A stretch of 64,000 nucleotides of DNA from a virus: IMG/VR virus record IMGVR_UViG_3300043395_003024, positions 1 through 64,000 of that record. One strand, written 5' to 3'. The notes under the pieces are model-generated. The model worked only from the letters and a program-made list of their open reading frames with translations. It had not been told where the DNA came from and made no database searches. Made by a program: the position numbers and the translations under genes. The stretch's first letter is position 1, and each line of letters starts with the position of its first letter. Positions 1-20,088 of this stretch are shown piece after piece.

Positions 1-2
1 GA

Positions 3-62: not shown

Positions 63-363
63 CCAACCGAGCCGAGTGGGTGTAGGTAAGTCCCCACCAC
101 TTACCTACACTCACCCCACCCCCCCCCAAGTGTCCGAGTGGCGCAGGGGGGGGGTAGGGGCTTGCGGTCTAGGTGTAGGTAAGTCTGCGACCGAGGGGCG
201 AGGGTTGGGGCAGGAGCCCCGCCCGAAGCCCGACCAGAACGGGGCTCCACCCCCAGCAGGCAGGGGTCGGCACACGGGGGTGTTCGGCAGGTAGGTTGGG
301 AAGTCTGACCCACGGCTGGTACGCTGTGGTCGCCAGTATCAACATGACTGAAAGGGGTCACCA
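63..363 (+). repeat. Intergenic repeat cassette I
   Basis: No gene is supported here. The 12-mer GTGTAGGTAAGT lies at 80-91 and its exact reverse complement at 99-110, so the RNA would form a 12-bp hairpin with a 7-nt loop. A third copy is at 173-184. The hairpin-forming GGGGCAGGAGCCCC is at 207-220, and the conserved promoter block is at 298-325. The same parts recur in the cassettes near 1.2, 3.1, 5.6, 6.5 and 9.8 kb. Confidence 0.8.
298..325 (+). promoter_or_regulatory. Conserved left-arm promoter, copy 1
   Basis: GGGAAGTCTGACCCAC is followed by GGCTGG and TACGCT. The last hexamer, preceded by TGG, fits an extended -10 box (320-325). The block recurs at 1473, 3276, 4431, 5848 (degenerate) and 6669, each time just upstream of a gene. 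The predicted start near 332 leaves a leader of about 30 nt with a GAAAGGGG ribosome site before the ATG at 364. Confidence 0.7.
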
Positions 364-816
364 ATGGCACAAGCACTACTCATCAAGACCACGGGAGAGG
401 TGGAACTCACCACCGTTCCCGAGGAAGGCGGTCACCTTGTTCTGAACGAACTCTGTGGTGGCTGGATTGACTGCGTTCGCACCGAGGACATTGTTGGCTA
501 TGTGAACGATGAGGGCATTCTCATCGGTCTCGCACCCAACGCTCTCGCAAGTCTCTTGTTCGGTCGCCCCCTTGTGGGCGATGTGGTCGTTCTTGGCGCA
601 CTCAACGATGAGGGCGACTATGACGGAGAGAACCACGATGTTCCCGAGCAGTACGACCCGACCCACTTGGAGACCATCTCTAAGGCTCTGCTCGCTGACG
701 AGAATGTCATGAAGGCTCTCGTTCTCGCCGTTGAGGAAGTCCTGTCCACGCCCCCCACCGTCACTGCCTTCACCGATGAAGAGTTTGACGCATGGCTGAA
801 CGGGAAGGGGGAGTGA
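364..816 (+). CDS. DUF3846-domain protein
   Basis: A 150-residue acidic protein. The first ~90 residues follow the DUF3846 pattern: an N-terminal strand MAQALLIKTTGEV, then LNELCGGWIDCVR, then a DEGILIGLAPN segment and a GDVVVLG strand. This family is common in phages and mobile elements; its function is unknown. The C-terminal third is acidic and helical (AFTDEEFDAWLNGKGE). It is the first gene after promoter copy 1 and overlaps a possible upstream start of the next gene. The family call rests on pattern memory, not on a profile search. Confidence 0.75.
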   Translation: MAQALLIKTTGEVELTTVPEEGGHLVLNELCGGWIDCVRTEDIVGYVNDEGILIGLAPNALASLLFGRPLVGDVVVLGALNDEGDYDGENHDVPEQYDPTHLETISKALLADENVMKALVLAVEEVLSTPPTVTAFTDEEFDAWLNGKGE

Positions 817-818
817 CC

Positions 819-1136
819 GTGGAAGGTGTAGGTAAGTCCCCCACCGACACCTACCCCATGCGCACCCTGCGTGTGGGCGAGGTCATCACCCCTGCCAGTA
901 GCGATAACCCCGTGACGGTTCTCGCTTGCTGGCTACTGCGCCCGAGCGATGTAGACGCATACGCCGTGTGGGTGGTGCTGTGCCACCTTCCGCACAACGC
1001 CTTCCACCCTTTCGCCGTGTGGACTGCCTACGACCGACCCGAGGGCTGGTCGTTCGGCGGTGGCGACTACTGCCGAGACATAGCCGAGGGCGTGGCGTGG
1101 TACGAGAGCCGAGGCGGTCAGTACTCGCTGGACTAG
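819..1136 (+). CDS. Hypothetical protein with a GVGKS leader encoded by the 12-mer
   Basis: About 105 residues from GTG 819, chosen because AAGGGGGAG lies a few bases upstream and the previous gene stops at 816. An ATG at 858 is the alternative start. The dispersed 12-mer (826-837) is read in frame as GVGKS at residues 3-7. The rest is rich in Trp, Asp and His (VDAYAVWVVLCHLPHNAFHPFAVW, then YDRPEGWSFGGGDYC). I do not recognise a family. If translation starts at 858, the 12-mer lies in the leader instead. Confidence 0.6.
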   Translation: MEGVGKSPTDTYPMRTLRVGEVITPASSDNPVTVLACWLLRPSDVDAYAVWVVLCHLPHNAFHPFAVWTAYDRPEGWSFGGGDYCRDIAEGVAWYESRGGQYSLD

Positions 1137-1506
1137 CGAGTTACCTACACCTGTTCTCCACCCCCCTTGCTTCGGTTGGGCGAGGGGGAGTGGATAGGTG
1201 TGGGATAGGTGTAGGTAAGTCCCCCGAGCCAGTCGGTGGCGGTCAGTCGGTCGGTCGGGGGTCGGGTTGGGGCAGGAGCCCCGCTACATGCACTTGGGCC
1301 GGGGCTTCCTGCGCTCGGCAACGCACGGGGTGTACGGCAGGTTGGGGCGAGCGAAGAAGGGGGTTGTGGGAATCTTTGAGAATCTGGCGAGCACACGGGT
1401 GAGCGCAGCAGGTATCCCCAACAGTTTGACGGTGGTGGAAAGCGGAGATTTGTGTAGGTAAGTCAGCCAGTTGGGAAGTCTGACCCACGGCTGGTACAGT
1501 ATTGGC
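1137..1506 (+). repeat. Intergenic repeat cassette II
   Basis: No convincing gene in about 370 bases. It contains an inverted 12-mer variant (1139-1150, AGTTACCTACAC), a 12-mer at 1209-1220, the hairpin GGGGCAGGAGCCCC at 1269-1282, the element TTGACGGTGGTGGAA at 1426-1440, another 12-mer at 1452-1463 and the promoter block at 1473-1500. This is the most complete copy of the cassette and has the same order of parts as the one at 3052-3337. Confidence 0.8.
1473..1500 (+). promoter_or_regulatory. Conserved left-arm promoter, copy 2 (leaderless)
   Basis: GGGAAGTCTGACCCAC, then GGCTGG and the -10-like TACAGT (1495-1500). Only six bases (ATTGGC) separate this box from the ATG at 1507, and no ribosome site fits between. 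Transcription should therefore start at or next to the A of ATG, giving a leaderless message. Confidence 0.65.
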
Positions 1507-1779
1507 ATGAGTTACAGCATCACCTCACCCAAGTATCCGCACATCAACATTCCCCTCGTTGGAGAGGACGGCAACGCCTTCTCCATTCTCGGGCGTGTCA
1601 GCCGAATCATGAGGCAGAACGGAATCCGTGACCAGTGGGACGAGTTCCACACCGAAGCCACCTCGGGTGACTACGACAACCTGCTCCTGACCGTCATGCG
1701 CTGGTTCGCCGTGGACGAGCAGTTGGACGAGGACTACGAGGACGACTGGGACGAGGATGACGACGAGGACGAGGAGTAG
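1507..1779 (+). CDS. Conserved phage/actinobacterial hypothetical protein
   Basis: A 90-residue protein starting MSYSITSPKYPHINIPLVGEDG. The stretch NAFSILGRVSRIMR followed by EATSGDYDNLLLTVMRW resembles a small conserved protein I recall from actinobacteria and their phages. The C-terminal ~20 residues are almost all Asp and Glu. It is read from a probably leaderless promoter (-10 box ending at 1500). The function is unknown. The acidic tail could be protein-binding or a DNA mimic, but nothing beyond composition supports that. Confidence 0.8.
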   Translation: MSYSITSPKYPHINIPLVGEDGNAFSILGRVSRIMRQNGIRDQWDEFHTEATSGDYDNLLLTVMRWFAVDEQLDEDYEDDWDEDDDEDEE

Positions 1780-1781
1780 AA

Positions 1782-1886
1782 ATGACACACACCTGTTCAG
1801 GCTGTGGTGCGTTCTTTCTGACACTCCAAGAACTCATCAACCACATGACCGACAAAGAAGCATGTATCGGAACAAACGAGGACTGA
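1782..1886 (+). CDS. Tiny zinc-finger-like protein
   Basis: A 34-residue open frame two bases after the preceding stop, from ATG 1782 to TGA 1884-1886. The pattern CSGCGAFF, then a helix LQELINHM, then EAC gives a C-x2-C-x11-12-H-x6-C arrangement like a single C2HC zinc finger. It probably binds zinc and may bind nucleic acid. The next gene starts one base after its stop, so the two are likely co-translated. Confidence 0.6.
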   Translation: MTHTCSGCGAFFLTLQELINHMTDKEACIGTNED

Positions 1887-1887
1887 C

Positions 1888-2073
1888 ATGGGACAGATGA
1901 AGCGAATCTCCGAAATGCTGGACGACATGTTCCGTCCACTATGCAAGAAGTGTGGGCTGATTCCTGCGAACAAGAACGCCTACAACGAGCGATACTGCTT
2001 CTACTGCGAAATGACGGCTGACTGGTGTCAATGCGATGTTTCGGATTTCTGCAAGTGCGAAGGACAGGTGTAG
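1888..2073 (+). CDS. Small cysteine-rich protein
   Basis: 61 residues, starting at ATG 1888 with GAGGA about six bases upstream. CKKCG, then YCFYC, then WCQCD and FCKCE give at least eight cysteines in CxxC or CxC pairs, suggesting one or two structural zinc sites. The gene ends inside the 12-mer: the codons GTG TAG at 2068-2073 are its first six bases. The function is unknown. Confidence 0.7.
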   Translation: MGQMKRISEMLDDMFRPLCKKCGLIPANKNAYNERYCFYCEMTADWCQCDVSDFCKCEGQV

Positions 2074-2086
2074 GTAAGTGTCAGGA

Positions 2087-2236
2087 ATGATGTACACACA
2101 GAGAAACGCCCACTCATGCCCGTGGGGTTGCTGTGGAGATTTCGTCAAAGGTCGTGGAACGAAGCATGCCTGCAAGAAGTGGCATAAGATTCTCCGCACA
2201 CGGGAGAAGCGGAACTGGAAGAAGGAGCAGTGGTGA
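2087..2236 (+). CDS. Tiny basic Cys/His protein
   Basis: A 49-residue frame, ATG 2087 (a second ATG directly follows) to TGA 2234-2236. It contains CPWGCCGDF and KHACKKWHK, then a strongly basic C-terminus (RTREKRNWKKEQW). Composition suggests a zinc-stabilised nucleic-acid-binding peptide. It starts eight bases after the 12-mer at 2068-2079, and its stop overlaps the next ATG (TGATG). Confidence 0.6.
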   Translation: MMYTQRNAHSCPWGCCGDFVKGRGTKHACKKWHKILRTREKRNWKKEQW

Positions 2237-2484
2237 TGGACATCGTAAACGAGCGAATCAAGTCATACATGAAAGACCCAACTCTGTACAGGACAACAGT
2301 TCAGGTCGGGCAATGGGGCAACAGTAATGGTGTAGATAACTATGTTGCCTTCTCGTTCTCTGACGGTGATGACATTCAGACGGCAGAGGACATCTCGCTG
2401 GCTCACATCATTCGTGAGAACAATCTTGACAATGACGACATCACGGAAGTCACGACAGACACATACAAAGAGGTATGGCAATGA
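2236..2484 (+). CDS. Hypothetical protein
   Basis: 82 residues from ATG 2236, which overlaps the previous stop; GGAG lies upstream. The protein is acidic and hydrophilic (FSFSDGDDIQTAEDISLAH, then NNLDNDDITEVTTD). No family is recognised. Start and stop overlap neighbouring genes on both sides, so it is part of a tightly coupled small-gene operon. Confidence 0.65.
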   Translation: MDIVNERIKSYMKDPTLYRTTVQVGQWGNSNGVDNYVAFSFSDGDDIQTAEDISLAHIIRENNLDNDDITEVTTDTYKEVWQ

Positions 2485-2747
2485 ACAAGAACGAACTCTA
2501 CGAAGTCATGGACGCAGTGTGGGACAACTACTTCACGCTTACTACGACTGCGGTGGAAGCGATGGCGATTATTTGGCACGATTATGCCAATGGGACGCTG
2601 TTCGAGTCGCTGAATCAGGACCACGGAATCACCGATGCAGAGTTCTGGGAGATTCTCGTCTCGCTCACGGTGCATGTCCGTGACATTCCCAACCGACGCA
2701 TGCCGGCGATGGAGTTCTACAAAGAGTGGGAAAGCAGGAAGGTGTAG
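2481..2747 (+). CDS. Hypothetical protein
   Basis: 88 residues. The start at ATG 2481 overlaps the previous TGA (ATGA) and has GAGG seven bases upstream; an ATG at 2475 is possible. The protein is mostly helical (NELYEVMDAVWDNYFTLTTTAVEAM) with an aromatic, acidic C-terminus. It ends in GTG TAG supplied by the 12-mer at 2742-2753. No family is recognised. Confidence 0.7.
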   Translation: MNKNELYEVMDAVWDNYFTLTTTAVEAMAIIWHDYANGTLFESLNQDHGITDAEFWEILVSLTVHVRDIPNRRMPAMEFYKEWESRKV

Positions 2748-2751
2748 GTAA

Positions 2752-3051
2752 GTGTTTCTGTACCTTTCTCTCCTCATTTCCTACCTACGGAACAGTCTGT
2801 TCCACTCTGACCTATTGCTGGTCGGAGCAGAGTGCCATGTTCGGTGGGAGTGGCAGGACGAGCCTGACCTACGAATCATCTCGTTTGCGCCTGAGCCAGA
2901 AGGTGACTGTCCGTTTGACGACTACGGCTGGCACGAAGCGTTTGCGCACCTGAACGGTTTACCTGCACTCATGCGATTCATTAGGCACGGCCGACGCATG
3001 GGCCATGAGTTCGTCAGTGTCAAACTCTGCTACGGAATCATCGCAGAGTAG
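2752..3051 (+). CDS. Hypothetical protein with GTG start inside the 12-mer
   Basis: About 99 residues if started at GTG 2752, whose first two bases are the last two bases of the 12-mer at 2742-2753. The N-terminal ~25 residues are hydrophobic (LYLSLLISYL) and may be leader sequence or untranslated. The region from HVRWEWQDEPDLRIISF onward has the codon use of its neighbours and looks coding. It ends in TAG overlapping the next 12-mer area. The product is unrecognised and the start uncertain. Confidence 0.5.
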   Translation: MFLYLSLLISYLRNSLFHSDLLLVGAECHVRWEWQDEPDLRIISFAPEPEGDCPFDDYGWHEAFAHLNGLPALMRFIRHGRRMGHEFVSVKLCYGIIAE

Positions 3052-3337
3052 GTGTAGGTAAGTCTTTCCCCTAGGGGGCGCATCGAGCTGGGAAGCCCCG
3101 CTGCGCTTCATGGTCCACAACCATGCGGGGCTCCTGCCCGAAGGAGCGGGTGGACGGCTCGGGGTGTCCAGCAGGTTGCTCGGGGGTGAGGAGCGCGGAA
3201 CGGGGATGGACGGCAGGTAGCGCACCCCACCCAACGCATTGACGGTGGTGGAAAGGGTTGGTGTAGGTAAGTCAGGGGAAGTTTGACCCACTGCTGGTAC
3301 GCTGTGGACAAGCCACCAAAGCCGAAAGGGAAATCAA
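3052..3337 (+). repeat. Intergenic repeat cassette III
   Basis: Holds a 12-mer (3052-3063), a long perfect-arm hairpin (AGCCCCGC 3094-3101 with GCGGGGCT 3125-3132, and inside it ATGGT 3110-3114 with ACCAT 3120-3124), the TTGACGGTGGTGGAA element (3239-3253), a second 12-mer (3261-3272) and a promoter block (3276-3303). No gene is seen. The order of parts matches cassette II. Confidence 0.8.
3276..3303 (+). promoter_or_regulatory. Conserved left-arm promoter, copy 3
   Basis: GGGAAGTTTGACCCAC followed by TGCTGG and the -10-like TACGCT (3298-3303). It differs from copy 1 by only two bases. The gene at 3338 follows after a leader of about 25-30 nt containing GAAAGGG. Confidence 0.7.
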
Positions 3338-4093
3338 ATGCCGAACTGGTGCTACAACTACATGACAGTCATGGGGAACAAGCGTGATTTGCGCAAGTTC
3401 ATCTCCGACATCAAGGTTGCAGAAAGTAACCCGAAAGGAATGTACCTTTCATCGGACGAGCAGTACGACCTGAACAAACTTGTACCGCTTGACCCGAGAG
3501 GACTCATTGAGACGACCTACACCCACAAGAACGCAGAGGGTGAAGAAGTCACTACAACAATGACGGTCTTTGCTCAGAAAGAGCGTGACGGCTTTGACGG
3601 ATACCTTGACGCTTGCGAGACATGGGGAAGCAAGTGGGGCGCATGCCGACCCGAAGTGGACGACGAGAATCCTACGAACGGCATGATTTCCATGCGATAC
3701 GAATCTGCGTGGGGTCCGTGTGACGGTCTGATTTCCAAGATTTCTATGCAATACCCGAACCTCATCTTTGGCGTTGCGTCAGACGAGGAATCCCGAGCCT
3801 TCATCTGCTGGACAGTGTTCCACAACGGAGATGTGGTTGAGGCTGGCGAGCGTGACCCGAACTTCCTCACCCCCGAGTTGCAAGAACTGTCTGACAAGGC
3901 AGAAGCAGAGGACGCAGACGATGACGCTTTGGAGATTTGGTGGGAAGCCCACTCTGAATGGAACAACCACCTTATGGAGATGTGCGATGACGACATGCTG
4001 ACATGCATGAAGGAATACAAGAAGCACCTTGCCTATGTTCGCCGTTGCGAGAAAGAAGGGAGAACGCCACGCACATTCATTTCATCTATCTGA
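3338..4093 (+). CDS. Api92/YubB-like ferredoxin-like-fold protein
   Basis: 251 residues beginning MPNWCYNYMTVMG, the hallmark N-terminus of the phage Api92-like / DUF1281 (YubB ferredoxin-like) family, usually MPNWCxNxLxVxG. Further family-like features are the KLVPLDP segment and the middle region SAWGPCDGLISKISMQYPNL. The C-terminal ~80 residues are acidic and helical. The molecular function is unknown. The gene stands alone behind promoter copy 3 and ends just before another 12-mer variant (4099-4110). Confidence 0.8.
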   Translation: MPNWCYNYMTVMGNKRDLRKFISDIKVAESNPKGMYLSSDEQYDLNKLVPLDPRGLIETTYTHKNAEGEEVTTTMTVFAQKERDGFDGYLDACETWGSKWGACRPEVDDENPTNGMISMRYESAWGPCDGLISKISMQYPNLIFGVASDEESRAFICWTVFHNGDVVEAGERDPNFLTPELQELSDKAEAEDADDDALEIWWEAHSEWNNHLMEMCDDDMLTCMKEYKKHLAYVRRCEKEGRTPRTFISSI

Positions 4094-4149
4094 ACTAGGT
4101 GTAGGTAACTACACACCACCCCCCAAACAAGAAAGAAGGAATCCCCAAC

Positions 4150-4371
4150 ATGGGAACATCAACCAAATCCATTGAGCAAATCTCAGAATCTGTACGGACA
4201 TACCGAAGCGAACAAGGCTGGTCACAGTTGGAACTTGCCAACCGTGCTGGTCTTGACCGCAAGACTGTGAACCGTATTGAGAATGGAAGATTCTCGCCGA
4301 GCGTGGAGACACTGCTCGCCGTAAGCACTGCTCTTGGAGTATCGGTAAACACTCTCCTCGGAGAGAAGTAG
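4150..4371 (+). CDS. XRE-family HTH transcriptional regulator
   Basis: 73 residues, essentially one HTH_3 domain: SVRTYRSEQGWSQLELANRAG, then LDRKTVNRIENG, then PSVETLLAVSTALGVSVNTLL. The recognition-helix positions (DRKTVNRIENG) are typical of Cro/CI-type DNA-binding proteins with no extra dimerisation or cleavage domain. The start has AAGGA upstream. It is followed within 45 bases by a 12-mer and a promoter copy, so it is a good candidate to bind one of the repeated left-arm elements. Confidence 0.9.
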   Translation: MGTSTKSIEQISESVRTYRSEQGWSQLELANRAGLDRKTVNRIENGRFSPSVETLLAVSTALGVSVNTLLGEK

Positions 4372-4415
4372 AAACATGGCTGGCATGTGGGGGCTTGTAC
4401 CGACCCCCACTACCA

Positions 4416-4457
4416 GTGTAGGTAAGTGTTGGAAGTCTGACCCACGAATGGTACGCT
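4416..4457 (+). promoter_or_regulatory. 12-mer plus conserved left-arm promoter, copy 4
   Basis: The 12-mer (4416-4427) is followed after three bases by GGAAGTCTGACCCAC (4431-), GAATGG and the -10-like TACGCT (4452-4457). The gene at 4496 follows after a leader carrying GAAAGGGG. The 12-mer to promoter spacing differs from copies 2 and 3 by only a few bases. Confidence 0.65.
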
Positions 4458-4495
4458 TCTATCACACCAACCAAACCGCCTGAAAGGGGCAACAA

Positions 4496-5188
4496 ATGAC
4501 ACAGAGAGATAGCGAAGTTCTTGATAACGACATCAAGACAGTCATGGAAGATTTGCTGAACCGAGCAGTGTTCGCAAAGACGGAAATGTGCAAGGACAAC
4601 CCGATGAGTGATAGCCCACCACTGTTCCTTGTCGCAGTTGAGAGCAACGACTCCAACCCCGACCATGACGCATGCTTGGACTACCAGCAGGAGTTCTCGC
4701 TCTCCAAGCCGTACCACCTCGCCATGATTCCTCTCATTCACAAAGAGGACATTTATGACGCATACGAAGATGTGGTGAAGTCACTTCCGATTCGCCCATT
4801 TGAGTTCATTGTCATGCTCGTTGAGGGATACGCCAAAGAGGACATGACCGAGGAAGAAGCAAAGAACCACGACCGAGGCGACTTTGAGAAGGACTACAAG
4901 GAGAACCCCTTCTCTACCGTCCGTGAAGGAATCGTGATGACTGCGGTGGACTGGAACGCCACTGGCATTTGGAACATCGCAAGCCTTTACCGCTATGACG
5001 ACAACGGTGTGCCTGTCTTTGACGATGAACCGAACTGCACGACCACGCCTGTTGATGTGGACTCAGACTCGCACGGTCGCATGCCTGACGCACTGCTCGC
5101 CACAGTCGGATACATGCAACTTGCCACCAAGACGCTCGCCTACAAGGAAATGCTTGACAAGGCTCCGAGGAAAGGCAAGGGGGTGTAG
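4496..5188 (+). CDS. Hypothetical protein, first gene of a three-gene unit
   Basis: 230 residues, acidic, with no transmembrane segment or signal peptide. A central stretch LPIRPFEFIVMLVEGYA, then TVREGIVMTAVDWNATGIWNIASLYRYDD, alternates strands in an alpha/beta manner. No family is recognised. Promoter copy 4 lies upstream. The last codons GTG TAG are the start of the 12-mer at 5183-5194, and the next gene begins two bases after that 12-mer. Confidence 0.75.
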   Translation: MTQRDSEVLDNDIKTVMEDLLNRAVFAKTEMCKDNPMSDSPPLFLVAVESNDSNPDHDACLDYQQEFSLSKPYHLAMIPLIHKEDIYDAYEDVVKSLPIRPFEFIVMLVEGYAKEDMTEEEAKNHDRGDFEKDYKENPFSTVREGIVMTAVDWNATGIWNIASLYRYDDNGVPVFDDEPNCTTTPVDVDSDSHGRMPDALLATVGYMQLATKTLAYKEMLDKAPRKGKGV

Positions 5189-5195
5189 GTAAGTC

Positions 5196-5345
5196 ATGGA
5201 CAACGAACTGGTAGCCCTAGTGGACAAGGCAATAGCCCACTGTTCGGGCAGAGACATTGTGTCATCGGCAGAGATAACCGACATGCTCTTGGACATTCGC
5301 ATACTTCTCATCACCACCAACACAGAAAGTGAGATTCCAGCATGA
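5196..5345 (+). CDS. Small hypothetical protein
   Basis: 49 residues from ATG 5196 to TGA 5343-5345. The start directly follows the 12-mer (5183-5194); the GGGGGTG at the front of that repeat may act as the ribosome site. Helical and mixed-charge (VALVDKAIAHCSGRDIVSSAEITDMLLDIRILLIT). The stop overlaps the next ATG (ATGA), so translation is probably coupled. No family is recognised. Confidence 0.65.
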   Translation: MDNELVALVDKAIAHCSGRDIVSSAEITDMLLDIRILLITTNTESEIPA

Positions 5346-5551
5346 GACGAGCAAGAAACCAGCACCTAATCGGGGAGAGGGTCAGACTCATTTACTGCTC
5401 CGACCCCTACACTCTCCTGAAAGCAGGAGAGGAAGGAACCGTGGATTTCGTAGACGACTGGGGGACGGTGTTCGTCCAGTGGGATAGCGGAAGCAACCTC
5501 GGAATGGTTGAGGAAGCGGGCGACCGCTTTGAGGTCATTGGTCAGGTGTAG
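5342..5551 (+). CDS. DUF4314-like protein
   Basis: 69 residues. IGERVRLIYCSDPY, then LKAGEEGTVDFVDDWGTVFVQWDSGSNLGM, matches the DUF4314 pattern: a small SH3-like beta barrel common in phages and mobile elements, with the GxxGTVxxVDDxGxxxVxWD core. Function is unknown. Start overlaps the preceding stop. The gene ends GTG TAG within the 12-mer at 5546-5557. Confidence 0.8.
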   Translation: MRRARNQHLIGERVRLIYCSDPYTLLKAGEEGTVDFVDDWGTVFVQWDSGSNLGMVEEAGDRFEVIGQV

Positions 5552-5918
5552 GTAAGTCCCCCCTTTCATTTACCTACACCCGAAGGGGTGTTGCCGTTCG
5601 GCTGGGCGGTGACACCCCTTCTTCGTGCCGGCGGTTATGGGGCAAGGAGCCCCGCCCGAAACGTCAGAAGGCGAGGGGTTAGTTTTCGCCTCGCACGATT
5701 TTTTGATTTTTTCGCATGGGTTCTCGAGAGCTGGCGGCAGAATCCTCGAGATTTCACATTGACGGTGGTGGAAAGCCAAGCCCATTGGCTAAACCCGCCG
5801 CCAGTTTTTCGCTTTTTTGCAGATTCTCAGTTTTTGTTTGCAACTCTGGGAAGTCTGGGAGATGGGTGTTAGAGTCGGACGGGTTGCACAGCAGGTAAAT
5901 CTAAATGGAGAGAAAGTT
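5552..5918 (+). repeat. Intergenic repeat cassette V
   Basis: No gene is supported. The 12-mer at 5546-5557 faces an inverted variant at 5568-5579. AAGGGGTG (5583-5590) pairs with CACCCCTT (5613-5620), and GGGGCAAGGAGCCCC lies at 5639-5653. TTGACGGTGGTGGAA is at 5759-5773, and a degenerate promoter block is at 5848-5875. Around 5698-5720 and 5800-5850 the sequence is T-rich. Confidence 0.7.
5848..5875 (+). promoter_or_regulatory. Degenerate copy of the left-arm promoter
   Basis: GGGAAGTCTG (5848-5857) matches the block exactly. The next 12 bases have diverged, but a -10-like TAGAGT (5870-5875) sits at exactly the spacing seen in the other copies. The gene at 5919 follows after a leader with GGAG. 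Confidence 0.45.
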
Positions 5919-6401
5919 ATGAACTTTACTATTGAGTTTGTTCACTCAGAGAACGCACGGCTGTATGCCGATTTTGAGAAGAAGTACAAGAAGCCCCAAG
6001 ACAGGTACGCCAACCAGAATGAAAGGTGGCGCATTGCCGAGACGGTGCGTGGGCTGTATGTCATGGAGAAGTGGCAGAGAGAAGGGTGCAATGGGAACCC
6101 TGTTGCAATGTTGCGTTTCTACTCACTCAGCGAAGATGTGCTGTCCTCATTCATCAAGACTTACCTACCACATGTCAATGCCAAAGACAGTGGAATCGTC
6201 AAGACGGAGAAGCGCAAGGATAAGTACGGCGCATTTGACGAATGGGCAGATGAACACAGGGGCGGAGAGTTCACCACTGACCAACTCGTTGAGATTTCTG
6301 GATTTTCGTACCAGACCACTCTGAAGTACGTCAGCGATTCTCCGATTTTCATCAAGGTCAAGAAGGGGCTGTGGCGAATCGCCGACCCCAAAGATGAGTG
6401 A
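5919..6401 (+). CDS. Hypothetical protein with C-terminal winged-helix-like segment
   Basis: 160 residues from ATG 5919, which has GGAG nine bases upstream; earlier in-frame codons run into untranslated repeat DNA. The last ~45 residues (FTTDQLVEISGFSYQTTLKYV, then IFIKVKKGLWRIADP) look like a small winged helix: a helix-turn-helix, then a basic wing. The N-terminal part (ARLYADFEKKYKKPQDRYANQNERWRIAETVRGLYVMEKW) is helical. Possibly DNA-binding; no family recognised. Confidence 0.7.
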   Translation: MNFTIEFVHSENARLYADFEKKYKKPQDRYANQNERWRIAETVRGLYVMEKWQREGCNGNPVAMLRFYSLSEDVLSSFIKTYLPHVNAKDSGIVKTEKRKDKYGAFDEWADEHRGGEFTTDQLVEISGFSYQTTLKYVSDSPIFIKVKKGLWRIADPKDE

Positions 6402-6736
6402 CCAGTAGGTGTAGGTAAGTCCACCAAAGTGTAGGTAAGTGGAAATAATCGACCCAAGAGCCCCGGCCCGCCCATGACCAGCGGGGCTCCAGCCCGAAGG
6501 GGTGGTGGGGGCGCACGGGGTGCGGTGCAGGTTGCTGGCAGGCGAGCGGGGGTGTTCGGCAGGTTGCTGGCGAAGCACGGACACGCTCTCGCAGTAGGTG
6601 TAGGTAACCCACCGCAGGTGTAGGTAACCGCCCCATGAGGTGTAGGTAAGTAGGTGTCAACAGAAGTCGGGAAGTCTGACCCACGGGTGGTATGGTGTGC
6701 CTGTCCGTAACCAACCGCTTACAAAGGAGCAATACA
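6402..6736 (+). repeat. Intergenic repeat cassette VI
   Basis: The densest cassette, with no gene. 12-mers lie at 6409-6420, 6429-6440 and 6640-6651, with AACC variants at 6598-6609 and 6618-6629. GAGCCCC (6458-6464) pairs with GGGGCTC (6483-6489). Two GCAGGTTGCTGG segments follow, and the promoter block is at 6669-6696. Confidence 0.8.
6669..6696 (+). promoter_or_regulatory. Conserved left-arm promoter, copy 6
   Basis: GGGAAGTCTGACCCAC, then GGGTGG and the -10-like TATGGT (6691-6696). It drives the MoxR/VWA pair; AAGGAG (6724-6729) is the ribosome site for the ATG at 6737. Confidence 0.7.
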
Positions 6737-7462
6737 ATGGACGCAACAACGGAGACAGCACTTCCGCAGTGCTGGCAAGATGTCAAGGACGCACTTGACG
6801 CAGGCATTGACCGAGTGATTCTGTTCGGTCCTGCTGGAACTGGCAAGACCTACGCAGGCTTGTCGTTCGGAGACATTGAGGCTGGTGCGTACCGCCTCGT
6901 CTGCACCGAGGACATGACCAACATGGACGTAACTGGTGGCTTCATGCCGTCAGCGAACGGTGGCTTCCAGTGGCTTGACGGCTCTGCCCTCAAAGCGTGG
7001 AAGGGCAACGGAACGAAGGGTGGTCGCCTCATCGTGGACGAAGTGGACAAGGCTGGTGGCGATGTGTTCGCAACCCTGCTCGCCATGCTGGATTCTCCCG
7101 AATCGGCTTCCTTCCAGCACCCCGAGACTGGCGAGACTGTTCGCCCTCTTGACGGATTCTCTGCGGTGATGACCACCAACATTGAGAACATGAGCGAACT
7201 GCCCACGGCACTCGCTGACCGCTTCCCGATTCGTATCCGAATCAACGAACCGCACCCGAACGCACTTCTCCGCTTGTCTCCCGACCTGCGTGGCTACGCC
7301 GTTCGCATGGCAGACGGTGGCGAGGCTCGTATCTCGCTCCGTGCGTTCATGGCACTGGACAAGTTGCGCAAGTCGGTCGGAATGGAGCGAGCCTGCCAAC
7401 TCACATTCGGCAACCGTGCCATGCAGATTCTTGACGCTCTCGCAGTGGACGGAGTGCGCTGA
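6737..7462 (+). CDS. MoxR-like AAA ATPase
   Basis: 241 residues. Walker A is GPAGTGKT (residues 31-38) and Walker B is GGRLIVDEVD (about 95-104). TTNIENM fits sensor 1, and LPTALADRFPIRI is the Arg-finger region typical of MoxR-type AAA+ proteins. These are ATP-driven chaperones that work with a VWA-domain partner to remodel or activate a target complex. The partner is the next gene, which starts one base after this stop. The start was chosen for the AAGGAG site; an upstream in-frame ATG (6692) lies inside the promoter block. The phage substrate is unknown. Confidence 0.9.
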   Translation: MDATTETALPQCWQDVKDALDAGIDRVILFGPAGTGKTYAGLSFGDIEAGAYRLVCTEDMTNMDVTGGFMPSANGGFQWLDGSALKAWKGNGTKGGRLIVDEVDKAGGDVFATLLAMLDSPESASFQHPETGETVRPLDGFSAVMTTNIENMSELPTALADRFPIRIRINEPHPNALLRLSPDLRGYAVRMADGGEARISLRAFMALDKLRKSVGMERACQLTFGNRAMQILDALAVDGVR

Positions 7463-7463
7463 A

Positions 7464-9038
7464 ATGTCGCTGAACCCTGCCAAGTCAGGTGTAGGTAAGT
7501 CGTTCCCCTCTCCGCTCTCAGACGCAGAGAGGGGGGCGCACCGCCCTGAACCGAACATGCTCGGACGCAAAGACCTTGCCCATGAGCGTTGGACTGTTGA
7601 GGACTGCCGTGCCGTGCGTGGCGAGCCTCGTACCGACCTTGCACACCGTGTCATGTTCGCACCGTCAGCAGACGGTGAAATGGAGCGTGTCGTTCGTGCG
7701 CACGAAATGATGCATGCGAAGGTGTCGCCCTCGCCCGAGCAAATGGAAGTGTTTATCGCTCGCTCTATCGCCTCTGCTACTGCCATGACAGTTGTTGAGG
7801 AACTGCGAGTGAACTACCTCTGTCAGAAGGCTGGCTTTGATGTCAAGACGCACCTCGCAGACGGAAACGAACTTTCCGCAGGCGAGCAACTTGCCAAGTC
7901 AAACGACTGGGCAGGCGCAGTGGCGACTTGTATCGCCACCGTTGGTACTGCCGGTCACAAGCCATTCCTGAACGGAATCCGCAGGCACAACCGAGCATGG
8001 GGTGACGCACTGGTGGACATTGGCAAGCGAGCCATGAAGGAAATGCGCAAGGCTGACCAGTATCGCACACTCGCAAGCACCGATACCCATGAAGGCGTTG
8101 CTCCGTACGGATTCACCCACACCGAGCGACTTGCCGAGTGGGTGGACAGGCTCGCCTCGTTCCCACCGCCGAAGTCTCGCAAGAACGACCCGAAGGGGAA
8201 GGCTGGCAAGAAGGAAGGCGAAGGCAAAGGTGTAGGTAAGTCCGAGGACGGTGACGGAGACAAGGAACACTCTGCCGAGTACGAGGAGACTGACGGAGAG
8301 AAGGAAGGCGATAGGGACGGAAACCCACACGGCAAAGTCACCCCTGCTGAATCAGGTGGTGCGAGCCGTTGGGCAGAACTGCGTGTCAGTCGTGAACCGT
8401 TGCCTCGTTACCACTACGGCTCAATGGGCAAGAAGCGAATCGCCACGAATGTCGGTATTCGCCCACGGCGCATGCACCGCTACATGACCGACCCTGCGAA
8501 GCGTGTCTTTGACAAGACGGTGCGTGGTAGTGGTGGCATGGTCATCATTGACGCAAGTGGGTCAATGTCATTCACCACCGAGCAAATCGCAGAAATCATT
8601 GAGAACGCTCAGGGTGCGACTGTCCTCATCTACTCCGACCGTGGGCGTGGCAAGGGTGACCAGCCGAACGCATGGGTCGTGGCAGACAAGGGACGCATGG
8701 TGGAGAATGTGGAATACATTGACTACGGACACGGCAACGGCGTGGACTTCCCTGCTATTGAGTGGGGCGTGAGGAATCGTCAATACAAGAACACTCCGCT
8801 CGTGTGGGTCACAGACGGTGGGGTGTGCGGTGCAAATGACGGATTCTCCGACCTGCTCGCCATGCAGTGCATTACATACGCTCGTCAGCACCGCTACATC
8901 GTGGTTCCCCACATTGAGGAAGCCATTGAGCAGTTGCGCAACCTGAAAGTGAATGGCAAGGCACACAGCGTGTTCCCATACACATTCCGCAACATCTACT
9001 ACAAGCACATGGGAGTACCGCTCCCCGAGCGTGAGTAG
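7464..9038 (+). CDS. VWA-domain protein with N-terminal metallopeptidase-like motif
   Basis: 524 residues from ATG 7464, one base after the MoxR stop. Residues 80-84 are HEMMH, a zinc-peptidase HExxH motif, as in the DUF2201-type putative metallopeptidases that carry a C-terminal VWA-like domain. A charged linker (about 220-300) is followed by a VWA domain with an intact MIDAS start, IDASGSMS (about 361-368), and VWVTDGG near the end. MoxR-VWA pairs act as a chaperone machine; here the peptidase motif suggests proteolysis or a relic of it. The 12-mer is read in frame twice, as GVGKS at residues 9-13 and about 256-260. The linker insertion suggests the repeat can spread into tolerant coding positions. 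Confidence 0.8.
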   Translation: MSLNPAKSGVGKSFPSPLSDAERGAHRPEPNMLGRKDLAHERWTVEDCRAVRGEPRTDLAHRVMFAPSADGEMERVVRAHEMMHAKVSPSPEQMEVFIARSIASATAMTVVEELRVNYLCQKAGFDVKTHLADGNELSAGEQLAKSNDWAGAVATCIATVGTAGHKPFLNGIRRHNRAWGDALVDIGKRAMKEMRKADQYRTLASTDTHEGVAPYGFTHTERLAEWVDRLASFPPPKSRKNDPKGKAGKKEGEGKGVGKSEDGDGDKEHSAEYEETDGEKEGDRDGNPHGKVTPAESGGASRWAELRVSREPLPRYHYGSMGKKRIATNVGIRPRRMHRYMTDPAKRVFDKTVRGSGGMVIIDASGSMSFTTEQIAEIIENAQGATVLIYSDRGRGKGDQPNAWVVADKGRMVENVEYIDYGHGNGVDFPAIEWGVRNRQYKNTPLVWVTDGGVCGANDGFSDLLAMQCITYARQHRYIVVPHIEEAIEQLRNLKVNGKAHSVFPYTFRNIYYKHMGVPLPERE

Positions 9039-10457: not shown

Positions 10458-10462
10458 AGACG

Positions 10463-10547: not shown

Positions 10548-10576
10548 TTGACAAAACCGACGGTGGTGGATAAGAT
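10548..10576 (+). promoter_or_regulatory. Sigma70-type promoter, leaderless
   Basis: TTGACA (10548-10553), a 17-bp spacer containing GACGGTGGTGGA, and TAAGAT (10571-10576). The ATG at 10583 comes six bases later, so the transcript should start at the initiation codon. The spacer carries the shared core of the TTGACGGTGGTGGAAG family. Confidence 0.75.
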
Positions 10577-10582
10577 GTTGAC

Positions 10583-10989: not shown

Positions 10990-10993
10990 GTAA

Positions 10994-11227: not shown

Positions 11228-11376
11228 TGCCAGCGTACGAATGTACCGAATGTGGTTCAGTCGCGTTTATCCATGACGCGTGCGAGCTCTGCGGCCTCGA
11301 GACGGATTTCTTCAAAAATCAAAAATCTTCCCTGGCCGCTGCGGCCGCGGACTCCACAGAAAAAGAGAAAAAATGA
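11227..11376 (+). CDS. Zinc-ribbon protein
   Basis: 49 residues, ATG 11227 (overlapping the previous TAA) to TGA 11374-11376. YECTECGSVAFIHDACELCG is a two-knuckle zinc ribbon (CxxC ... CxxC). The tail is Ala- and Lys-rich. Likely a small nucleic-acid- or protein-binding factor. The stop overlaps the next ATG. Confidence 0.7.
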   Translation: MPAYECTECGSVAFIHDACELCGLETDFFKNQKSSLAAAAADSTEKEKK

Positions 11377-11837: not shown

Positions 11838-11841
11838 AAAG

Positions 11842-12528
11842 ATGTTGACGGTGGTGGAAGAGATGGAACCAGGGAACCCAAGGTCATGGAACGAGGCTGC
11901 GGCAATCTGCGTTTCTGAGATTTTTGACGAAATTGGCGGACCTCTGGGGCATCTTCGAAAAGTAGAAGAAAATGGAAAAAACAGAATTGTGAGCTCGAGC
12001 GGCCCGGCGGCAGAAATCGAGAATTCTTTAAATTCTGTACTCGAAGGCCTTTCGATAATCGATAATCAATTCGAGGGAATGGTCCAATCTAGGGAATGGT
12101 TCCCGTCGGACCAGATGTGCTGGGTAGAAGAATGGAAAAATCTCGGCTCCATCGCGGCAGCTGCTGGCATCAAAAACGGAAATTTATTCAATATCCACCA
12201 GGGCCCTGGCGGTCATCCAGAAAATCTGATTTCCTCAGCTTCCGCGGCAGCTTCACTCGACAGCTGGATGCTTCGCGAAGACATCACATCGACACTGATT
12301 CGTAAACAATCAGATTACGGACATCACAATATTGCGCGTTTTGGTCGACACGGTCTCGTCGTGCGCTGCCATGACAAAATCGCAAGATTGAAGAATTTGC
12401 ATCTGGCCCGCGGCGGCCAGGCAGCCAACGAATCACTTACTGATACCTACACCGATATTGTCGGATACTCCGCGATTGGGATGATGTGGGAACGTGGGTG
12501 GTTTCTGTTAGATTTAACCAGAGACTAG
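11842..12528 (+). CDS. Nmad1 (DUF1599)-like protein
   Basis: About 228 residues from ATG 11842. The C-terminal ~85 residues (LIRKQSDYGHHNIARFG, then RCHDKIARLKNL, then ESLTDTYTDIVGYSAI) match nucleotide-modification-associated domain 1, a helical domain found in phages, often with DNA-base-modification genes. The DYG, DK and ESxxDTxxDxxGY positions resemble all-alpha NTP pyrophosphatase-type sites. The N-terminal ~110 residues are unassigned. The start codons MLTVVEE are written by the TTGACGGTGGTGGAAG element (11845-11860), so that element overlaps the initiation site. Confidence 0.7.
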   Translation: MLTVVEEMEPGNPRSWNEAAAICVSEIFDEIGGPLGHLRKVEENGKNRIVSSSGPAAEIENSLNSVLEGLSIIDNQFEGMVQSREWFPSDQMCWVEEWKNLGSIAAAAGIKNGNLFNIHQGPGGHPENLISSASAAASLDSWMLREDITSTLIRKQSDYGHHNIARFGRHGLVVRCHDKIARLKNLHLARGGQAANESLTDTYTDIVGYSAIGMMWERGWFLLDLTRD

Positions 12529-12535
12529 GAAGGGA

Positions 12536-12841
12536 TTGACGGTGGCGGAAGAGACGCAAAAAGCCGTATGGGAGAGGGCGCTCGGCGTCTCGATTAACTT
12601 CCCCGAAGACGACACGGATGAAATCGATGTATGGGCAGCATTTGCGTCGCCGGCTCCGATTATTAAACAGGAACATTTCCACCAGGCAATCGACGAGCTA
12701 CCAGAAATAGAAGCAATTATTGCCAAATCCTTGGTACACCATGGCGTGAATATCTGGCTCGGAATTCCAGAACACATAATCGAGGAGCTCGAGCGCGCCG
12801 GCTACAAAATCTCAAAAACGAGAAAATCTACGCGGCAGTAA
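12536..12841 (+). CDS. Hypothetical protein with TTG start in the TTGACGG element
   Basis: 101 residues. The start is TTG 12536, with AGGAAGGGA just upstream. The first codons are the repeat TTGACGGTGGCGGAAG (12536-12551), read MTVAEE. Middle region VWAAFASPAPIIKQEHFHQAIDELPEIEAII, C-terminus basic. No family is recognised. Confidence 0.65.
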   Translation: MTVAEETQKAVWERALGVSINFPEDDTDEIDVWAAFASPAPIIKQEHFHQAIDELPEIEAIIAKSLVHHGVNIWLGIPEHIIEELERAGYKISKTRKSTRQ

Positions 12842-12867
12842 AAAGCCGGTGTAGGTAACTACTAGAA

Positions 12868-13140
12868 ATGGAAAACATGAATACTCAAGAACTCGAAGTA
12901 AAGCTTCTTGAAGCCGTTCTTTACAACGAAGAAACGGGCGAGCTACACACCCCAGAAGAAAGGGCAGAAAATCTTGATGCAATTCGACTCAAGCTTATTG
13001 AGTTGGGTAATGCATTTGAAAAAATGGACGACATATCGATTGGGATAAGAATGGTATACATCCAGACTTTCATACGTGTCACTGAGACATATCTCGGAAT
13101 TAACGAAAAACATGAAGAACTTCTGGACGCCGGCAGGTAA
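12868..13140 (+). CDS. Hypothetical helical protein
   Basis: 90 residues, preceded by a 12-mer variant GTGTAGGTAACT at 12849-12860, eight bases before the ATG. Mostly amphipathic helices (LEVKLLEAVLYNEETGELHTPEERAENLDAIRLKLIELGNAFEKM). No family is recognised. This is the last clear 12-mer before a 7-kb gap. Confidence 0.7.
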   Translation: MENMNTQELEVKLLEAVLYNEETGELHTPEERAENLDAIRLKLIELGNAFEKMDDISIGIRMVYIQTFIRVTETYLGINEKHEELLDAGR

Positions 13141-13142
13141 CC

Positions 13143-13298
13143 ATGGCGCCAGAAGACATCGAAGTGGAGTTTCTTGCTTTTCAAGAAAGCTGGCGCGACG
13201 ACGTCCTGCTACGTGAGGCAGACATCAAAGCTGAATATCAGGATTTTTGTGATGCGCAGCGGGATGCTTACCTGGATGAGCTCGAGGCCGGCGAATGA
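13143..13298 (+). CDS. Small acidic helical protein
   Basis: 51 residues, ATG 13143 to TGA 13296-13298, two bases after the previous stop. Highly charged single-helix composition (EFLAFQESWRDDVLLREADIKAEYQDFCDAQRDAY). The stop overlaps the next ATG (ATGA). Function unknown. Confidence 0.55.
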   Translation: MAPEDIEVEFLAFQESWRDDVLLREADIKAEYQDFCDAQRDAYLDELEAGE

Positions 13299-13420
13299 AA
13301 TTCTTCTTTTTCTCCTACATGGCGCTGCTGGGATGGTTCTTTTTCTGGCTAAGGCCTCGTGTTAATGATGGCCGCATAGAAGACATAGTCAACAACATTC
13401 AAAAAAGGATAAAAAAATAA
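13295..13420 (+). CDS. Tiny single-pass membrane protein
   Basis: 41 residues, ATG 13295 to TAA 13418-13420. FFFFSYMALLGWFFFWL is one aromatic transmembrane segment, then a basic tail (NNIQKRIKK). Overlaps genes on both sides by 1-4 bases. Together with the next gene it forms a pair of small membrane proteins. Confidence 0.6.
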   Translation: MKFFFFSYMALLGWFFFWLRPRVNDGRIEDIVNNIQKRIKK

Positions 13421-13764
13421 TGAATCTAATTCTCACGTTCGGAGCACTCCTGGCGGCCATGGCGGCAATGACTATTTTCGCCGATTCTTTGTCCAGATGG
13501 AACGAGCGACGTCAGTATCGTCGAGCTACTCACCCGCGAAATATCGAAAAAACCGCAAACCATCTTCTGGAGCTCGAGCTGCAGCAGTTGCTGCTCGAAG
13601 AGGAAATTAAAGAAAAAGCACGAAACCGGATGGAGCACCCGTCGAGCTATTCAAAAACCGTCGGCGGCGGCCTCGATGGCAAAACCAAGGAAATTCTCGC
13701 AAAACTGACAGACCCGCGGCCGGCGCGGCGCGATAGGAACAACCAGTTCTGGTGGGGCGAGTGA
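13420..13764 (+). CDS. Membrane-anchored coiled-coil protein
   Basis: 114 residues: an N-terminal transmembrane helix (LILTFGALLAAMAAMTIFA), a basic stretch, then a helical coiled-coil segment (ANHLLELELQQLLLEEEIKEKARNRM). The topology would leave the coil in the cytoplasm. Starts on the previous stop (TAATG). Could be a membrane-remodelling or lysis accessory protein; no family recognised. Confidence 0.65.
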   Translation: MNLILTFGALLAAMAAMTIFADSLSRWNERRQYRRATHPRNIEKTANHLLELELQQLLLEEEIKEKARNRMEHPSSYSKTVGGGLDGKTKEILAKLTDPRPARRDRNNQFWWGE

Positions 13765-13775
13765 AAAGCGAAGGT

Positions 13776-13939
13776 GCCCCCGGGGAGTCAAAGACGGCCA
13801 CCTACCAACCCATCAATGAACTCAACCCGGGGGCGAACTTCTTTCCGGGCGAAAGGGGAACCCGTAGGAAGCCTGGATAAATTACCACAATGCAATTAGC
13901 CCGTCTTGCAAGTCCAGAAAAAAAATCCTGGATTGTGGT
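13776..13939 (+). ncRNA. Candidate structured RNA region, part A
   Basis: Gene-free but folded-looking. GCCCCCGGG (13776-13784) pairs perfectly with CCCGGGGGC (13826-13834), CTTTC (13841-13845) with GAAAG (13851-13855), and ACCACAAT (13884-13891) with ATTGTGGT (13932-13939). The last stem encloses TCCAG (13913-13917)/CTGGA (13928-13932). Such nested perfect stems over 165 bases suggest a functional RNA; the family is unknown and it could be an operon 3' leader structure. Confidence 0.45.
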
Positions 13940-13967
13940 TGACGGTGGTGGAAGAGCCTGATATGGT
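13939..13967 (+). promoter_or_regulatory. Promoter made by the TTGACGGTGG element
   Basis: TTGACG (13939-13944), a 17-bp spacer and TATGGT (13962-13967). The -35 is the start of TTGACGGTGGTGGAAG. The predicted start near 13974 is gene-free DNA, so the immediate product would be non-coding or a long leader for the gene at 14278. Confidence 0.55.
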
Positions 13968-13973
13968 CTCCGG

Positions 13974-14235
13974 CCACTAGCTCAATAGAGCAAAGTTTGG
14001 AATTCCAAGGCGCCGGCCAGCGCCACACCTACAGAATATTTCTGACACCTCGAGGGGAGGTGTAGTTTGGGTTGCACCTGCGCAATATCTTTTGTAAAGG
14101 TTCCCCCCAGACCCCCCTCCAAAGTATCCTTCCTGGCCAAACCGCAACTGTTCCATTCACGGAACCTAGGAAAGCCAAAGCTCTTACGAAAGTATGATTA
14201 CGGACTTAAGGTGAAGTCTGTTCAAAATCATAAAT
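13974..14235 (+). ncRNA. Candidate structured RNA region, part B
   Basis: About 260 bases without a gene, downstream of a good promoter. It begins CCACTAGCTCAATAGAGC, a tRNA D-arm-like hairpin, but there is no T-loop, so it is not a tRNA. CACCTC/GAGGTG forms a hairpin around 14047-14063, and GACTT/AAGTC another around 14203-14217. Identity unknown; a small regulatory RNA or a long structured leader are both possible. Confidence 0.35.
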
Positions 14236-18479: not shown

Positions 18480-19690
18480 TCGGCAACGTATTCTTTGCCT
18501 CGGAGTATTCCCCTACCCTTATATATCCACATTGGCTCGTAGTTAAACCATTCGTTACCCTGTCCGTATGGCTGATAGGTTACGACGCCCAATCCCTGTT
18601 GCCAGTTCTCTGCTCCCTGGAGAATTGGTCTACCGAATTCATCCATTCCAGATTTCGTGGAGGGAACAGCGCCATCTACTCTGCAGAGACATCCAGGGCT
18701 AGCGGCCATGATTGTCCGCGGTCCACTGTCAGTGCGGTATGTGCGGTATGCCAGCTCGTTCCGGTGGATGTGTCCGTATATCACTGAAATTCTCTCGTTG
18801 TCTAGGTACTTCTTGGTGGTTGAGTTGTTTGAAACAACTTTGTCACCGTGTACAACGACAAGATTCGAGTTCAGATAATGGGCAGATTCTGGGTACCCTG
18901 GCAGATAATCGACGCCAAATTCGTCCATTCTGCACAAAAATGGGACCGACATGACAGGCCAGCCCTCTCGAAGTTCGTCATTGGCCTTGCCTCTGGTTAT
19001 TCCAAAAGCAGCTTCTGCGTTGGTCTGGATATACCTGGCCATTCTTGCTTCGTGGTTTCCGGCAATCCATGTGATTTTAGCGTTAGGTGCAGCTGTTCTA
19101 AGCTGGGCGCAGAGCATTGTTGCCCTGTCGATTGATGCCTGGAGCATCTGCTTGAATGGGGCCGCCGTCAGATATTTGCCCAATTCAGCAAAATCGAGGT
19201 TGTCGCCGACCAGAACAACCTGGTCTGGGTTCATTTCCTCGATAACGGCTAGGGCTACGGCAATTGCCGACTCGTCATGGATTGGCTCTAACTCAACAGA
19301 GTCTATTGATTTTCGATAGAAACCTATTTGTATATCAGGCACGATAACTGCCGTTTCCCACTGCTTTGGGGTGCCCGATTTTGTCTTTGGCTTTTGTATT
19401 TGTATTTTGGGCCCTTGTTCCATAAGGGGCCACTGTGGACCAGTTTCCCATGAAGGACTAAACTGGATTGCCTGCAGGTCGTGGACGATTGCCTCACCAG
19501 TATCTGGGTTCTTTGTGACGGACTGGTAGAGGGAGACCTTTTGGATATTTCCCACTTCGCTTGGGTCGATTCCCTTGCGCTCCAGCATTGCCGCAATATC
19601 GTTGAGAACCTTCTTGCTATTTGCCTCGCGGTTTGCGCCATCGGCAATGGTCTTGAGCGTTGATTTGAGGCCTTCTTTTTTTGCAGCCAT
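18476..19690 (-). CDS. Calcineurin-like metallophosphoesterase
   Basis: 404 residues. Metal-binding motifs in order: VPDIQIG (usual D-x-H, here D-x-Q), VLVGDNLDF (GDxxD), WIAGNHEAR (GNHE), LVVVHGDK, and YGHIHR (GHxH). The domain covers about residues 110-340. The N-terminal ~90 residues are helical and may bind a partner. Likely a phosphodiesterase acting on nucleic acid or nucleotide; the missing first His could alter metal or substrate preference. Confidence 0.85.
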   Translation of the reverse strand: MAAKKEGLKSTLKTIADGANREANSKKVLNDIAAMLERKGIDPSEVGNIQKVSLYQSVTKNPDTGEAIVHDLQAIQFSPSWETGPQWPLMEQGPKIQIQKPKTKSGTPKQWETAVIVPDIQIGFYRKSIDSVELEPIHDESAIAVALAVIEEMNPDQVVLVGDNLDFAELGKYLTAAPFKQMLQASIDRATMLCAQLRTAAPNAKITWIAGNHEARMARYIQTNAEAAFGITRGKANDELREGWPVMSVPFLCRMDEFGVDYLPGYPESAHYLNSNLVVVHGDKVVSNNSTTKKYLDNERISVIYGHIHRNELAYRTYRTDSGPRTIMAASPGCLCRVDGAVPSTKSGMDEFGRPILQGAENWQQGLGVVTYQPYGQGNEWFNYEPMWIYKGRGILRGKEYVAE

Positions 19691-19971
19691 TATTTTCTCT
19701 TTTCCTTTGACTCAGCATTCTGGGCGAGGCAACAGCCGGCGCCCCCAGCCTTGAAGCAGGTATTTCTTTTTTCTCCGAGATATTCCCGGCTCACTGGGAT
19801 GCCCTCGTCCTTAAGTGCGCGGACTAGACCCATTGTGGATGCATCGCTCTTGAGAGCTTCTACAAGAATGGCCGCCGTCTCTCCGTCAAGCGACTTAATA
19901 ATGTTTCCGAGCTTGCAATCTCGTTCTCGGCCTGGACTGTCAATAAGTTTCTGTAGCGAGTCCCTCAACAT
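19690..19971 (-). CDS. Small HTH-like Cys protein
   Basis: 93 residues from ATG 19971, chosen because AAGGGG precedes it; the frame stays open to a TTG/ATG at 20067. MLRDSLQKLIDSPGRERDC, then LDGETAAILVEALKSDASTMGLVRALKDEGIPVSREYLGEKRNTC, resembles small phage proteins with a helix-turn-helix-like core. It could be a small regulator or a terminase-small-subunit-like DNA binder; neither is proven. Ends with a Lys-rich tail. Confidence 0.55.
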   Translation of the reverse strand: MLRDSLQKLIDSPGRERDCKLGNIIKSLDGETAAILVEALKSDASTMGLVRALKDEGIPVSREYLGEKRNTCFKAGGAGCCLAQNAESKEKRK

Positions 19972-20076
19972 GTTTCCCCTTTTCCTGCTATTGTCGCAGT
20001 TGTGATTCTTTTTACTTATGGTGTTCTCAGTGTTGTTCACACCGCTGCTCTCATAGTACACCATCAAACTACATGG

Positions 20077-20088
20077 GTGTAGGTATCT
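20077..20088 (+). repeat. Isolated 12-mer variant
   Basis: GTGTAGGTATCT, one base before the TTG start at 20090. It is 7 kb from the nearest other copy and in the divergent region between two regulators. Confidence 0.55.

Follow-up and report, generated by a model that had tools for sequence, protein, structure and literature searches.

A dispersed, mostly sense-oriented 12-mer array that changes its word as a set among large phages: possible stoperator-like sites

An uncultured virus of bacteria is represented in IMG/VR by a record of 145,204 bp (IMGVR_UViG_3300043395_003024, here G000), bases 1-64000 of which are the stretch analyzed here and referred to as the window. The first 13 kb of the window are dotted with copies of an asymmetric 12-mer, GTGTAGGTAAGT, and unbiased k-mer counting revealed arrays of the same density, built from a different word, in near relatives. 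We give a probability of roughly 0.55 to the reading that these 12-mers are stoperator-like sites of a single phage-specific factor, which co-evolves with them and insulates early transcription or switches it off.

A search of both strands of the window with GTGTAGGTAAGT, allowing up to two mismatches, returned 37 matches against 3.39 +/- 1.85 expected from 100 dinucleotide-preserving shuffles, none of which reached 37. An earlier note, made from the letters of the window alone, had reported about 30 copies; each coordinate that it listed does hold the 12-mer or a variant differing by one or two bases, and the dispersed repeat is therefore real, whereas the list proved to be a lower bound, with 42 sites in G000 and 73 in G002, a complete genome that uses the same word (per-genome counts allow one mismatch). 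Nothing speaks for chance or a codon-usage artefact as the source of the array, and the likelihood of either is negligible given the shuffles and the avoidance of coding DNA by the sites. Individual matches with two mismatches at 2330, 6159, 10830, and 15523 are probably due to chance, and the membership of a one-mismatch copy at 10645, which lies in a gene and has no site at its counterpart in L012, is doubtful.

The array had also been taken to mark the left arm of the genome. The 42 sites in G000 comprise 29 in the first 13 kb, a single one at 122.8 kb, and 12 at 136-144 kb; because sites also occur at 122-144 kb, the array spans the ends of the record, and it is a single arc of about 40 kb crossing them instead of a left arm. 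G000 has no direct terminal repeat and is incomplete, and comparison with collinear complete relatives shows that about 13 kb are missing where its end would join its start, a gap that falls mid-array. All 73 sites of G002 fall within one arc of about 40 kb, and each of the six site-bearing full genomes besides G000 (G002 included) has 51-77 sites in a single arc of about 30-40 kb (49 to 74 inside the arcs proper), which works out at roughly one to two sites for each gene. The copy at 20077 that the earlier note had counted is not an array member, because G001 has the identical sequence, ATGGGTGTAGGTATCTCTTGAGG, at this position despite using another word for all its other sites. Over the first 12 kb, GC content declines from about 60% to 47% (window positions 1-14000 examined).

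Relatives were collected by using the AAA ATPase encoded at 6737-7462, adjoining the array, as a query against IMG/VR; 122 were recovered, and the best 80 show 69-100% identity. Besides G000, the whole genomes examined were six that bear sites (G001, G002, G003, G004, G006, and G007) and two more distant ones (G008 and G011); all are environmental contigs, and their gene calls and promoters are predictions. The tail-sheath protein matches those of Brevibacterium, Gordonia, and Arthrobacter phages at 37% identity and therefore suggests an actinobacterial host. In Rfam, a tRNA was the sole match above the gathering score.

Exact copies of its own word number 25 in G000 and 51 in G002 (both GTGTAGGTAAGT), 40 in G001 (GAGTAGATAAGT), 32 in G003 (AGGTAGATAAGT), 55 in G004 (AATAGATAAGT), 42 in G006 (ACTAGATAAGT), and 56 in G007 (AATAGATAACT). 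Words of foreign classes are present in 0 to 3 exact copies each, and the matrix of six words by seven site-bearing genomes is almost diagonal. G008 and G011 contain no such sites, and the k-mers dispersed in them are tandem promoter repeats. Dispersed k-mers in the distant relatives L054, L055, L062, L072, L077, and L087 were considered as additional site classes and likewise turned out to be tandem promoter repeats; the site system is therefore confined to one clade.

Site-by-site comparison shows that the switch affects the whole set. Between window positions 1-13.2 kb and L012 there are 24 pairs of sites at the same position and on the same strand (19 plus and five minus), and T2>A and G7>A distinguish the two words in 24/24, with positions 3-6, 8, and 9 unchanged throughout and the 20-bp flanks on either side only 46% identical. 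L021, which shares the word of the window, gives 27 pairs without a single change at positions 1-10; L012 and L021 show the identical two-base switch over 31 pairs, and the majority of 32 pairs between L012 and L025 are switched at positions 1-2. In trees, the window, L012, and L021 group together within the relatives that use GAGTAG words, the branching of the three varying by gene. Because the flanks of different copies are unrelated past about 14 bp, conversion between copies is unlikely, and the simplest cause of a set-wide switch would be one trans-acting factor that selects all sites.

The same data bear on the proposal that the 12-mers are gene-cassette boundaries or sites for recombination, replication, or partition. 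A frequency of about one to two sites for each gene cassette would suit this, as would a ParA-like ATPase encoded by G001, G002, and G003 alone among the site-bearing genomes (L100 at G001 117302-117904 and L104 at G002 33060-33680, in the part of the arc that is missing from G000). However, ParA was not detected in G004, G006, and G007 despite their full arrays, site positions are stable among relatives, and the unrelated flanks argue against copying by recombination, making a role of this kind very unlikely.

The anatomy of the sites was scored on gene calls made in the present analysis. In the seven site-bearing genomes, 69-82% of sites are in the sense of the nearest gene, and a stop codon lies within 25 bp of 29-41% of them compared with 8-9% of random positions. 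In G000, only 6/41 arc sites are fully coding, against a coding share of 70% for the arc as a whole. The orientation with transcription that the earlier note described thus stands as a bias and not as a strict rule, the arc of G000 having 30 sense and 11 antisense sites. Its placement of sites at gene ends is likewise only part of the picture: of the 188 sites pooled from G000, G001, and G002, 44 are antisense. The 144 sense sites divide into 42 that follow a stop by no more than 60 bp, 36 that precede a promoter-like repeat by no more than 60 bp, 13 between closely spaced genes, 19 within open reading frames (ORFs), 31 in other intergenic positions, two just ahead of a start that has no promoter-like repeat, and one in a 5' leader. 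The promoter-like repeat consists of GGAAGTCTGACCC followed by TGGTACGCT, and its letters suggest an extended -10 element. Sites, repeats, and their surroundings in the window are as follows.

80-91 (+) and 99-110 (-): inverted site pair with a C-rich 7-nt spacer, both members kept in L012 with the other word
173-184 (+): exact site; L012 has a site at the same position
299-325 (+): promoter-like repeat GGAAGTCTGACCC...TGGTACGCT, with more copies at 1474, 3277, 4431, and 6670
826-837 (+): site just 3' of the stop of the 364-816 gene
1139-1150 (-) and 1209-1220 (+): site pair flanking a hairpin
1426-1439 (+): second repeat, TTGACGGTGGTGGA, also at 3239, 5759, 10056, 11845, 13939, and others
1452-1463 (+): site; the promoter-like repeat at 1474 begins 10 bp downstream
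2068-2079 (+): site whose TAG is the stop codon of the 1888-2073 ORF
2742-2753 (+): site whose TAG is the stop codon of the 2475-2747 ORF
3052-3063 (+): site 3' of the stop of the 2752-3051 ORF
3261-3272 (+): site 4 bp ahead of the promoter-like repeat at 3277
4099-4110 (+): site between the stop of the 3338-4093 gene and the XRE gene
4416-4427 (+): site 3 bp ahead of the promoter-like repeat at 4431
5183-5194 (+): site at the operon junction 4496-5188 / 5196-5345, its TAG serving as stop codon
5546-5557 (+) and 5568-5579 (-): inverted site pair with the C-rich spacer CCCCCCTTTC, kept in G001 and G002 too
6409-6440 (+): tandem sites at 6409 and 6429, 3' of the 5862-6401 gene
6598-6651 (+): three tandem sites at 6598, 6618, and 6640, preceding the promoter of the AAA gene; relatives hold two to three copies of their own word here
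7489-7500 (+): site within the VWA gene, translated GVGKS
8230-8241 (+): site within the VWA gene, kept in L012 as the other word, which alters the VWA protein (G258D)
9039-9050 (+): site immediately 3' of the VWA gene stop
9112-9123 (-): antisense site in the loop of the hairpin GGTACAAG/CTTGTACC; L012 and L021 keep its position, its strand, and the arms on either side, with letters changed
9199-9210 (+): site with one mismatch
9593-9604 (-) and 9698-9709 (+): site pair
10984-10995 (+): site variant at an operon junction, absent as a site in L012
12849-12860 (+): final convincing arc site in the window

In the 60 bp ahead of promoter-like repeats, 30 sense and 0 antisense sites occur, with a modal gap of 3 bp, a regularity that a promoter-proximal activator or an alternative-sigma box ahead of early promoters would explain. 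Yet just 36/144 sense sites are so placed, against 42 after stops and 19 in ORFs, the spacing ranges from 0 to 37 bp, and several promoter-like repeats have no site at all, which makes such a box unlikely as the function of the array. Constitutive terminators are also unlikely because some sites lie within ORFs.

The main rival is a signal at the level of RNA, for which a phage RNA-binding protein would bind the transcript GUGUAGGUAAGU at 3' ends, or a phage RNase would cut it, or it would pair with antisense copies into hairpins, so that early mRNAs are ended or destroyed. Most antisense sites are partnered with a sense site; sense-to-antisense pairs often have C-rich spacers of 5-13 bp, and antisense-to-sense pairs cluster near 21 bp. 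These inverted pairs, with C-rich spacers or internal hairpins, fit an RNA signal, as do the sense bias, the placement at gene ends, and the antisense site at 9112, whose hairpin arms changed in step in L012. On the other hand, sites directly ahead of promoter-like repeats fall outside the mRNA that starts there, 5' leaders are almost free of sites, L012 retains the window's five minus-strand sites, and G003, G004, G006, and G007 contain antisense copies without a partner. On balance we regard an RNA-level signal as rather improbable, though it is the alternative that deserves most weight.

Under the stoperator-like reading, one phage-specific nucleic-acid-binding factor would recognize the asymmetric 12-mers across the arc of about 40 kb, which presumably comprises early genes; once bound, it would block transcription running from one early gene into the next or, alternatively, insulate or silence each early promoter, and the phage could thereby turn off the whole arc in one step. 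The set-wide letter changes would then reflect co-evolution of factor and sites. What the data show is the array itself, its restriction to one arc, where its sites stand with respect to stops and promoter-like repeats, their orientation bias, and the joint switch at conserved positions; the VWA protein change (G258D) that accompanies the new word also speaks for this reading. We infer that the factor is a protein that acts on DNA and stops elongation; the early status of the arc is suggested by its position and gene content.

Within a limited set of open-access literature, the closest known system is that of the Cluster A stoperators, which are asymmetric, intergenic, oriented sites of 13 bp, 24 in L5 and 34 in Bxb1, with a subcluster-specific consensus bound by a helix-turn-helix (HTH) repressor that silences prophage transcription; examples are L5 gp71, Bxb1 gp69, and the TipsytheTRex repressor (PMC3029335; PMC6550527; PMC9283540). 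The array resembles these in having many copies of a short asymmetric site (12-14 bp there, a 12-mer here), mostly intergenic or over gene ends, with one dominant orientation (at 69-82% sense, looser than described for L5) and a consensus that differs set-wise between relatives. The note's comparison with stoperators is thus strengthened, since asymmetric, intergenic, mostly sense sites that change as a set are what was described there (PMC3029335; PMC6550527), and the array likely works as stoperators do. It differs in having 51-77 sites rather than 20-34, in being limited to one arc of about 40 kb instead of running genome-wide, in its 18-31% antisense sites with recurring inverted pairs, and in its carriers, which are contractile-tailed phages of about 150-170 kb and not temperate siphoviruses; its word is, by eye, unrelated to GGTGGMTGTCAAG / GTTACGWDTCAAG (PMC3029335). 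Because no integrase was detected in the nine genomes and the sites are not spread over the genome as a whole, we do not class the array as a Cluster A system, and membership is not claimed.

Short asymmetric repeats in many copies also occur in phages of actinobacteria as the start-associated sequences (SAS) of Cluster K, which precede start codons. The array shares with the SAS of Cluster K mycobacteriophages (PMC3203893) shortness, asymmetry, and copy number; unlike them, only 2/144 of its sense sites immediately precede a start codon that lacks a promoter-like repeat.

Several points weigh against the stoperator-like reading. A binder was not found, the recognition helices of both the XRE-family and the HA-domain HTH proteins remaining constant while the word changes. 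Antisense sites, many in inverted pairs with C-rich or hairpin spacers, would suit an RNA feature too. The promoters and the early status of the arc are sequence predictions. Finally, the nine genomes yielded neither a tyrosine nor a serine recombinase, so that a lysogenic state for a stoperator is unsupported and a lysogeny repressor unproven; because of the ParA-like ATPase in G001-G003, an episomal state is nevertheless possible. A broader version, which we put forward tentatively and consider possible without expecting it, is that in large phages lacking an integrase an arc-wide array of switching specificity insulates and shuts off every early gene through a factor that is not of the Cluster A type, and that the switches prevent cross-regulation among co-infecting relatives.

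The array bears on the question of how specificity can shift in a DNA-binding factor that has dozens of sites. Within the clade, at least six words occupy collinear positions as a natural series, and some pairs of them are two bases apart at every site, so that intermediate steps and co-varying residues are open to direct search. Stoperator-like control would also be extended from temperate siphoviruses to large and perhaps strictly lytic phages.

Three genes of the window are relevant as candidate binders.

4150-4371 (+): XRE-family HTH gene, its recognition helix nearly invariant across word classes
10083-10457 (-): HA-domain plus HTH gene, its HTH invariant across word classes
20556-21020 (+): fast-evolving winged-helix protein, modeled at a predicted local distance difference test score (pLDDT) of 82 (AlphaFold and Foldseek)

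The earlier note had proposed the XRE protein, but its helix (D/E)RKT(V/I)NR(I/V)E is nearly constant in relatives with at least seven words, and it is unsupported as binder because the helix stays while the word changes. The recognition helix of the HA/HTH protein is likewise the same across words, and the identity of this protein between the window and L012 (96%, different word) exceeds that between the window and L021 (91%, same word). Also rejected were the winged-helix C-terminus of the 5862-6401 protein, which is conserved across word classes, and a 222-aa HTH protein (G000 110727-111395) with an invariant N-terminal HTH, which is encoded beside a primase-helicase gene and, judged by sequence pattern, resembles a small terminase subunit. 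Residue versus word-class co-segregation over genes singled out no decisive gene, with VWA, DUF932, and a 90-aa gene standing out weakly, VWA in part because sites sit inside it; neither this search nor the XRE and HA/HTH helices disclosed a co-varying HTH protein. The 20556-21020 protein is a weak and rather improbable candidate: it first looked limited to site-bearing genomes, but weak homologues exist in site-less ones, and its recognition-helix region varies between phages with the same word. Upstream of the HA/HTH gene, window 10474-10487 (CGAACATATGTTCG) resembles an actinobacterial LexA/SOS box, and the form CGAACA....GTTCG is retained in the six relatives read.

The arc contains further repeats and elements. 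The TTGACGGTGGTGGA repeat is oriented and unchanged in nearly all relatives regardless of their 12-mer, and it may serve as a second operator or promoter. Hairpin repeats of the form GGGGCAGGAGCCCCGC occupy intergenic spaces of the arc (window 207, 1269, 3125, 5640, 6481, and 9937). The VWA-like protein (7464-9038), for which Pfam gave no match, has an HEMMH motif, appears metallopeptidase-like by eye, and adjoins the AAA_5 ATPase. A stem-loop 3' of its gene (window 9119-9180) displays in its loop a conserved CTCCTTT, like the 3' end of 16S rRNA; among relatives L011-L090, the near ones have it at this place and many of the rest have something similar, and several of its stem pairs are maintained through changes on both sides. 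This element is possibly a new small RNA or a leader displaying an anti-Shine-Dalgarno sequence.

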